A stretch of 36,318 nt of DNA from Bacillota bacterium. Lineage in GTDB: Bacteria > Bacillota > Limnochordia > DTU087. Below the pieces are notes generated by a model. It worked only from the letters and a program-made list of their open reading frames with translations, ran no database searches and was not told where the DNA came from. Every line of letters begins with the position of its first letter. The first letter of the stretch is position 1. Location: positions 1 to 36,318 of the forward strand of contig JAAYQZ010000045.1 of the NCBI GenBank assembly GCA_012519025.1, in the 5' to 3' direction. Both the position numbers and the translations under genes were made by a program. Below, piece after piece: positions 7,834-11,685 of the stretch.

Positions 7834-9261
7834 CTAATTTGTTAGACTCGCTGTTAGAACTCTGCTTCCTACAGGTCTTTGCACGTTCGATGTTTGTTCC
7901 GCAGAAATCACTGCACCGGAAAACGAACTCAGCGACTGTGATGGTACCAAACGCCCCACCCAAACATCCTGGGGTGAACTAAACATAGTTGTAACAACCC
8001 AATTGTTTGTATTACCTTCCCTCAGCCACAGTTTATACACATCTTGGTTAAATACTGTGGGATCGGGTACATTTGACGCTGTTGCCAGTACCACGTTGCC
8101 GGAAGGATCCATAAACAGGATACCTTCGCCATTAGGAGCGAGATCTGTTGGTGCCATAACGATACACCGGGGCCCCGGCGGCTGCGGCTGTACTGGGATA
8201 CAAATTTGCTCTCCGGGTACAAGCCTCATTGGATCGATGCCTGGGTTGGCCGCAACAATGGCTGAAACTGTTGTGCCAAACCGCTGGGCAAGTTCAAACA
8301 GGGTATCGCCCGGCCGTATGGTGTAGAAGAACCCGGAACAAGGCGGCGGCGACGGCTGTACCGGGATGCAAATCTGCTGTCCGGGTACAAGTCTGGCCGG
8401 ATCGATGCCCGGATTGGCAGCGATAATAGCTGAAACCGTTGTGCCAAACCGCTGGGCAAGTTCAAACAGGGTATCGCCCGGCCGTATGGTGTAGAAGAAC
8501 CCTGAACAAGGCGGCGGCGACGGCTGTACCGGAATGCAAATCTGCTGTCCGGGTACAAGTCTTGCCGGATCGATGCCCGGATTGGCCGCAACAATGGCCG
8601 AAACCGTTGTACCAAACCGCTGGGCAAGTTCAAATAGAGTATCGCCCGGCCGTATGGTATAGAAGAACCCTGAGCAAGGTGGAGGCGGTGGTGGCGGTGG
8701 TGGCGGTGGCGGCGGACCAGGTGCAACTGTCGGTATACATATTACCTGCCCGATCTGTAGGTTGTTAGGATCAACTCCCGGGTTAGCCGCTTGAATTGCT
8801 GCTGCAGTAGTTCCAAATCTTTGTGCTAACAAAAAGAATGTGTCACCAGCTCTGATTGTGTACAAAAATCCGTTGGGGCAAGATGGCGTCGGCGGCGGAC
8901 CGGGTGCAGCAGTTGGTATACAAATTACCTGCCCGATCTGCAGGTTGTTGGGATCAACTCCCGGGTTAGCCGCTTGAATTGCTGACGCGGTAGTGCCGAA
9001 TCGCTGTGCCAATAAGAAGAATGTGTCTCCCGCCCTGATCGTGTACAAGAACCCGTTGGGGCAAGATGGCGTCGACGGGGGACCGGGCGCCACAGTCGGG
9101 ATGCAAATTACCTGCCCGATCTGCAGGTTGTTGGGATCAACTCCCGGGTTAGCCCTTTGAATTGCTGACGCGGTAGTACCGAATCGCTGGGCCAACAAAA
9201 AGAATGTGTCGCCCGCCCTTATTGTATAAAGAAAACCTGGGCAACTTGATGTCTGACTCAC
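7834..9261 (-). CDS. Six-LysM protein with C-terminal RskA-like domain
   Basis: Encodes 475 residues. Six LysM domains fall into two sub-families: units 1-3 (FLYTIRAGDTFFLLAQRFGT type, 61-residue period) and units 4-6 (FFYTIRPGDTLFELAQRFGT type, 56-residue period). A proline run of more than ten separates the two blocks. LysM binds N-acetylglucosamine in peptidoglycan. The last 105 residues (ILFMDPSGNVVLATASNVPD onward, with VYKLWLREG) resemble the extracellular domain of anti-sigma-K factor RskA. There is no signal peptide or membrane helix, which fits a protein made in the mother cell and assembled on the spore, as with SafA-like coat proteins; that location is inferred. The start is the GTG at 9261 behind AGGAGG, since an upstream TTG at 9288 precedes that site. 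Confidence 0.88.
   Translation of the reverse strand: MSQTSSCPGFLYTIRAGDTFFLLAQRFGTTASAIQRANPGVDPNNLQIGQVICIPTVAPGPPSTPSCPNGFLYTIRAGDTFFLLAQRFGTTASAIQAANPGVDPNNLQIGQVICIPTAAPGPPPTPSCPNGFLYTIRAGDTFFLLAQRFGTTAAAIQAANPGVDPNNLQIGQVICIPTVAPGPPPPPPPPPPPPPCSGFFYTIRPGDTLFELAQRFGTTVSAIVAANPGIDPARLVPGQQICIPVQPSPPPCSGFFYTIRPGDTLFELAQRFGTTVSAIIAANPGIDPARLVPGQQICIPVQPSPPPCSGFFYTIRPGDTLFELAQRFGTTVSAIVAANPGIDPMRLVPGEQICIPVQPQPPGPRCIVMAPTDLAPNGEGILFMDPSGNVVLATASNVPDPTVFNQDVYKLWLREGNTNNWVVTTMFSSPQDVWVGRLVPSQSLSSFSGAVISAEQTSNVQRPVGSRVLTASLTN
8185..8670 (-). repeat. Three tandem 168-bp repeats (LysM units 4-6)
   Basis: A 168-bp unit, 56 codons, is repeated nearly three times with very high nucleotide identity, including the CSG linker and the proline-rich spacer. 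For example, the GGCGGCGGCGACGG string recurs exactly 168 bp apart. The near identity, including silent positions, points to recent duplication or gene conversion. Confidence 0.85.
8732..9234 (-). repeat. Three tandem 183-bp repeats (LysM units 1-3)
   Basis: A 183-bp unit, 61 codons, occurs three times. Each encodes one LysM domain plus a TVAPGPP-type linker and a CPNG turn. It is a separate family from the 168-bp units and slightly more diverged at third codon positions. Confidence 0.82.
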
Positions 9262-9407
9262 ACTGACCCTCCTCCTTTTGCTCTCCAATGTTACCGTAGG
9301 AACTTACTCCCACAGCGACATTCTATGCAATACCAGGAGAAGAGTGCTAGGAGTCAATTCCTATTTGCCCGTCCCGCCCCACCAGACCTTATTTAAAGCA
9401 CAAAGGA

Positions 9408-10241
9408 CTACCTTCCCAAGATACGGTCCATCGCATGGGAAATATCATCGATCAGCTGGTCGCCATAATGTTTGTACGGAGATAGCTCAGTATAAGCATA
9501 ATCATCGTATCCAATTTCACGCAAAGCAGCCATTACCTCAGGCCAATTTACATCTCCCTCAAGCAAATTTACAAACCCGCCCAAAGTACCTACAGACATT
9601 CTAAAATCTTTAAAATGAACTTTTTTAATTCGCTCACCAAGCACCCTGATCCAGTCCTCAGGGAACCCATATAATAGCACATTACCAACATCGAAGTAAG
9701 CGCCTACGTAGTCACTGTCGACAGCATCAAGAAAATCCCGCATCTCAATGGGACTAAGCAGAAACTTGTTCCATACATTTTCAACCCCGATATGCACACC
9801 AGCGGCCTCTGCTTCAGGGGCTAATTCCCGCAGACCTTCCAAGGCACGCTCCCATGCATCAGCATAAAACACTCTTTCCTCTGAAGCAAAAGGTGCCGAA
9901 ACTACCCCCGGAACCACTAATATTGTGTCTGCGCCGAGCCCTTTGGCCACTTCCAGTGCCTTGCGGACAATTGATTTACTTTTTGCTCGGACTTGAGGAT
10001 CACCGGAAGTCATTGGGTACTGCCAGAATAGTCCCGTCGCTAAGCTATTGAGCTCCAATCCTATGCCATCGGCAAGATCCTTGATAGCCCGCACCTAAGC
10101 GGCGCCGGTTTCCAAAGATAGTTCCCCGCTCTCATCCAAAGCTAGTTCTATCCCCTCAAAACCAGCCTTCTTCGCAGCTTCCATACACTGCCGAATTGTC
10201 CAATCCGCCGGCAGTGACCAGCGATTGATACCCTTTTTCAT
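9408..10241 (-). pseudogene. Sugar phosphate isomerase/epimerase interrupted by in-frame TAG
   Basis: A xylose-isomerase-like TIM barrel of about 277 residues is read in one frame from an ATG at 10241 (seven bases after GGGAGG) to 9408. A single TAG at 10097-10095 breaks it after residue 48. The reading frame resumes at once with GTG CGG GCT and no shift, and the flanking protein reads naturally across the stop (SLETGAA, stop, VRAIKDLADGIGLEL). All four metal ligands downstream are intact: E in GVENVW, D in AYFDVGN, H in VHFKDF and E in YTELSPY. Loss of the first strand and helix should disable the barrel, and no ribosome site precedes the restart. A GAG or CAG codon changed to TAG, a sequencing error, or stop readthrough would explain it. 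Confidence 0.8.
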
Positions 10242-10413: not shown

Positions 10414-11685
10414 TTGACCAAATCCCGCCGGCCCATGGGAAACTATTATGCAGTCTTAATCGATGGTGCATTTTACTTTACTGCCATGACATTTGTGGCC
10501 GCTGCCACTGTTGTCCCCACCTTCGCCAAAGAGTTGGGGGCTACGCCTTTAGTTATTGGGCTTGCACCCATGTTAGCCAACATGGGCTGGATGCTGCCAC
10601 AACTTTTTAGTGCCAGATATGTACAGCGCCTTACCTACCGCAGACCGTACGTCCTTACTATGATGGGTCTGCAAAGACTTTGCTTTTTAGCGATTGCCGT
10701 CTTCTGCTGGCTTTTACCTGCTTCACGAATGCGGCTTCTCTTATTTGCTTTTTTGGCAATGTATCTTCTAGCACACATAATTGATGGGATTGGCACGGTG
10801 GCTTGGTTGGAATTTGTGGCAGCAGCCGTTCATGAAAGGCAGCGGGGTACACTTTTCGCCTCCCGGACATTGATCAGCTGTTTTACGGGTCTGGCGGCAG
10901 GATGGTTGACAAGCCTGACCCTTGCTAAATTTGCCTTCCCCACCAACTTCGGTCTCCTTTTTTTGTGGGCATTTTTACTATTTGCCGCGGGATGGACTGT
11001 TTTCGCCGGCCTCAGTTGGGAAGAGGACCGTACTCAACCTCAAATCCAATCTCTCAGCCTCGGCAAATATTTGAAACAAATCCCGACGATCTTAAAAAAA
11101 GATGTCCCGTTTCGGGGACATGTTGTCGGAACAGCATTTTTGCTATTTGGCCAAATGGGTTTGGCCTTCTTTTCGATTCATACATTGGAACGCATGGAAT
11201 TACCGCCGGCTTTTGTGGGATATTTAACTATGGCTATGACAGCGGGCCAAATGCTTGCCGCGCTGATCGCTGGGCGGTTAAGTGATGCCAAAGGTCATAA
11301 GATCAATTTGGTCTTATCATGTACTTCCATGGGATTGGCAGCGCTGATCTCGTTACTTCCTGCCGCCAGGTTGTGGGCACTGCTCATTTTTGTCCTCATG
11401 GGAATTGCAAATACCACATACAGTGTTTCGCGGCTGCCTATTGTTATGGAGTATGCGGCCGAAGGTTACCGCTCAGTGTATGCGGGGATAGTCAACACAA
11501 TTCTGGCACCTGTAGTACTTCTGACCCCTATTGTAGGAGGAAGGCTTGTGCAGGTTTATGGTTATGACATTGTATTCGGCACAGCTTTATTCGTCAATCT
11601 CTTGGCTATTTGGATCTACCTCAGACGTGTCCAAGATCCAAGAACACTGCAAAGAGAGTCCCACTTGTTTACGGGAGATGCCTAG
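10414..11685 (+). CDS. Major facilitator superfamily transporter
   Basis: Encodes 423 residues with a TTG start eight bases behind AGGAGGT. About twelve hydrophobic helices are visible in two halves with a cytoplasmic loop near residues 205-235. The loop between helices 8 and 9 carries GRLSDAKGHK, a variant of the MFS motif GxxxDRxGRR. The substrate cannot be read from the sequence. It is divergent from the interrupted sugar isomerase across 172 bp, and glycosidase and sugar dehydrogenase genes follow, so sugar uptake or efflux is a reasonable guess only. A possible promoter (TCGACA, 17 bases, TATTAG) begins near 10268. Confidence 0.88.
   Translation: MTKSRRPMGNYYAVLIDGAFYFTAMTFVAAATVVPTFAKELGATPLVIGLAPMLANMGWMLPQLFSARYVQRLTYRRPYVLTMMGLQRLCFLAIAVFCWLLPASRMRLLLFAFLAMYLLAHIIDGIGTVAWLEFVAAAVHERQRGTLFASRTLISCFTGLAAGWLTSLTLAKFAFPTNFGLLFLWAFLLFAAGWTVFAGLSWEEDRTQPQIQSLSLGKYLKQIPTILKKDVPFRGHVVGTAFLLFGQMGLAFFSIHTLERMELPPAFVGYLTMAMTAGQMLAALIAGRLSDAKGHKINLVLSCTSMGLAALISLLPAARLWALLIFVLMGIANTTYSVSRLPIVMEYAAEGYRSVYAGIVNTILAPVVLLTPIVGGRLVQVYGYDIVFGTALFVNLLAIWIYLRRVQDPRTLQRESHLFTGDA

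Follow-up and report, generated by a model that had tools for sequence, protein, structure and literature searches.

In a genome of the Bacillota (GTDB class Limnochordia) we analysed a window of 36,318 nucleotides, that is, the whole of positions 1 to 36,318 on contig JAAYQZ010000045.1, and in it we find a gene for a sugar isomerase/epimerase-like protein whose reading frame is interrupted by a single in-frame TAG. We consider it very probable (roughly 0.93) that the interruption is either a nonsense mutation that arose recently in a dispensable gene, or else an error of the consensus or a minority strain allele, the assembly being a fragmented draft. The features on which the argument depends are as follows.

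9408..10241, minus strand: interrupted sugar isomerase/epimerase-like gene (Pfam, NCBIfam, family orthologues)
10095..10097, minus strand: in-frame TAG, codon 49
10098..10241, minus strand: first 48 codons, with GGGAGG upstream of the ATG
9408..10094, minus strand: the 228 codons that follow the internal stop, opening with GTG, and the natural closing TAG
10414..11685, plus strand: MFS transporter, divergent from the interrupted gene (Pfam; kept in family genomes)
7834..9288, minus strand: LysM-repeat protein, downstream of the interrupted gene (Pfam; kept in family genomes)

A preliminary description of this DNA had reported a sugar isomerase gene split by one in-frame TAG at 10095-10097, giving no strand. 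We place the gene on the minus strand, where the frame consists of an ATG that follows shortly after a GGGAGG, 47 further codons, the internal TAG, 228 codons and a closing TAG, for a total of 277 codons when the internal stop is counted as one. No other stop or frameshift was found inside this frame between 9408 and 10241, and beyond the closing TAG a TAA is met after five codons in the same frame.

When the internal stop is replaced by X, the translated protein matches the Pfam family PF01261 (AP_endonuc_2, the xylose isomerase-like TIM barrel) with 160.3 bits against a cut-off of 31.1, and the match, over residues 21-257, extends across the stop; a genome-wide profile search likewise reports one TAG within the AP_endonuc_2 match at this locus. 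What distinguishes the gene from those of other PF01261 proteins is that one TAG. Of the NCBIfam families, the protein matches eight and stays below the curated cut-off of every one; the best match is to L-ribulose-5-phosphate 3-epimerase (NF009689), with 89.9 bits against 200. Judged by these profiles, the product is a xylose-isomerase-like TIM-barrel protein, a putative sugar isomerase/epimerase. Its putative metal ligands, the E in VEN, the D in YFDVGN, the H in VHFKD and the E in YTELSP, all lie downstream of the internal stop.

The same description had held that the two halves share one frame and that the reading runs on across the stop, and comparison with homologues agrees. In the 14 closest homologous loci listed, the alignment is unbroken from residue 1 to residues 272-277, so that the homology on either side of the stop is, by these alignments, far beyond chance.

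An uninterrupted orthologue is present in 7 of the 10 other genomes of the family, at 69-76% identity, and absent at E <= 1e-20 from the remaining three, one of which belongs to the same genus. The surroundings of the gene are conserved as well: in all seven family genomes that hold the isomerase gene (loci L067-L073) both the MFS neighbour and the LysM-repeat neighbour are kept, the LysM-repeat match in L071 being short and truncated where the locus ends. Sixty genomes, our own included, were searched at the DNA level; 13 of them gave matches, which supplied the loci L010-L021. A megablast search of plasmids gave no match.

Reading the relatives' codons at this site by tblastn, as had been suggested for close relatives, we find a sense codon in each of the seven family orthologues: CAG in three, GAG in two, AAG in one and CAA in one. 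The claim that one base change would suffice agrees with the first three of these codons, each of which is a single step from TAG. We also examined a wider set of 87 homologous loci, composed of the best 80 of 419 relatives in genome_contigs together with the seven family genomes (seven of those best 80 appear, from their same identities, to duplicate the family genomes). At 86 of the 87 there is a residue in the codon-49 column (E at 39, D at 25, Q at 15, K at 3, S at 2, G at 1 and T at 1), and at none of these 86 aligned loci is there a stop. The position is tolerant, with no special residue required there.

These comparisons suggest how the interruption would have arisen. The sugar isomerase/epimerase gene would be an inherited one, in which a single base change at codon 49 made TAG out of a sense codon; the ancestral codon was probably CAG (Gln), with GAG and AAG also one step away. 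The change may be a real and recent nonsense mutation, in a gene which this family can do without. If it is real, the product would end at residue 48 and no TIM barrel would be made, presumably with loss of activity. Alternatively, the TAG may be a consensus error or a minority strain allele in the assembly, which is a fragmented draft of 165 contigs, 98.61% complete and 2.66% contaminated. A study of public genomes (PMC11017572) attributes many putative pseudogenes to assembly errors. Our gene resembles the recent nonsense pseudogenes and internal-stop artefacts of bacterial genomes in having one stop, an otherwise conserved gene and a fragmented draft, and we found no difference from them. 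The single-stop interruption is an event of an ordinary kind.

The rest of the protein bears on the age of the stop. An alignment of 81 rows has 70 columns with a conservation of 90% or more; the window protein departs from the consensus at 1 of these 70, compared with a row median of 3 and a maximum of 9. When the family alone is considered, it departs at 15 of 171 conserved columns, and its relatives at 1 to 8; we attribute this excess to the position of the window protein in the tree, where it branches outside the other seven family orthologues. A slight relaxation of constraint on the window protein may be present, and apart from the stop we see no sign of decay in the sequence. Since the departures at strongly conserved columns are no more than those of intact homologues, the stop would be either recent or not in the organism at all.

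The codon immediately 3' of the TAG is a GTG, which opens the frame of 228 codons. One might suppose, therefore, that the ribosome restarts at this GTG and that the two fragments then assemble into a split TIM barrel. However, the counterpart of the GTG codon is Val in six of the seven family orthologues and Leu in the other, so its appearance as a restart codon is probably due to chance; by eye there is no good ribosome-binding sequence just before it; and a stop in the aligned stretch occurs at none of the 87 homologous loci (the best 80 of 419 relatives and the seven family genomes). We regard a restart as very unlikely.

The conserved frame on both sides of the stop would also be expected if the TAG were decoded, either as pyrrolysine or as Gln by a suppressor tRNA, so that the full enzyme is made. 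The preliminary description had named a site of readthrough as one of three readings, beside recent nonsense mutation and assembly error, and had pointed to a suppressor tRNA or pyl genes as the thing to look for. Both of the other readings fit our results; readthrough finds little support in them. For PylS no match in the genome passes the cut-off: there are four weak ones, and the best of these (29 bits against 178) is to the histidyl-tRNA synthetase. For PylB there is no match at E <= 1. Of 14 control genomes, one exceeded the cut-off in the PylS search and one in the PylB search. Release factor RF1 (prfA), on the other hand, is present, with 545 bits against a cut-off of 423. A TAG kept in homologues, as pyrrolysine would have it, is found at 0 of the 86 aligned loci, and at the codon-49 site these loci have no stop and no residue that is invariant. 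We set pyrrolysine aside on the strength of the searches for PylS, PylB and RF1.

Among the 40 tRNA matches to RF00005, an incomplete set, none has a CTA anticodon, although an unusual tRNA could escape the RF00005 model. ARAGORN typed 39 of the 40 (37 distinct sequences). The one that it missed (C58, L059:232-304, 35 bits) is by eye a tRNA-Ala with anticodon GGC; the pairing between its 5' and 3' halves is poor, perhaps because of a misjoin near the contig end. We also observe that tRNA-Gln, tRNA-Cys and tRNA-Tyr are missing from the 40 matches, even though the draft is 98.61% complete, and the tRNA set of the draft is therefore incomplete. The lack of tRNA-Gln leaves the decoding hypothesis some room, in that an altered tRNA-Gln could sit in the missing part.

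In the window, TAG serves as an ordinary terminator. It ends 8 of 24 open reading frames there, the interrupted gene included (the 24 were hand-picked from 85); a Pfam scan of nine of the 24 gave a match for every one, and three of the nine end in TAG. Within the 140 matches to ABC_tran and BPD_transp_1 there is no TAG at all. A TAG-reassigned code would be expected to lack RF1 and to have given up TAG as a terminator; here RF1 is present and TAG still terminates frames of the window. Readthrough or recoding at codon 49 is poorly supported, and we judge decoding of the TAG as an amino acid highly improbable.

Internal stops of any kind are found in 2 of the 32 AP_endonuc_2 matches in this genome, in 1 of 85 ABC_tran matches and in none of 55 BPD_transp_1 matches. 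The ABC_tran case, a TGA, falls where two partial matches overlap, and looks like a frameshift. Besides the window gene, the other AP_endonuc_2 case is a second sugar-isomerase-like gene (contig C92, L064:1108-1974). Its lone internal stop is an in-frame TGA at codon 86, a position at which three family relatives carry Arg codons. A further copy, on C124, was reported with one TAA, and we rejected it: the stretch aligned by tblastn holds no stop, and the coordinates point to the natural end of the gene. Lone stops are, in short, rare but present, as scattered mutations or draft consensus errors would give.

That both lone stops fall in one superfamily could hint at a non-random cause, though the counts are low and the domains of unequal length. 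For example, amber readthrough by a tRNA-Gln missing from the draft might keep some full-length enzyme, with the C92 TGA as a parallel, and the stops in these two genes of sugar catabolism would then be leaky or under regulation; we hold this to be even less probable than decoding of the TAG in general.

As a nonsense mutation or a consensus error, the interruption matters little in itself. It is a clean example of why a lone internal stop, in a genome without the machinery, should not be called recoding, and a reason to check the reads before a gene is declared lost in a draft genome.
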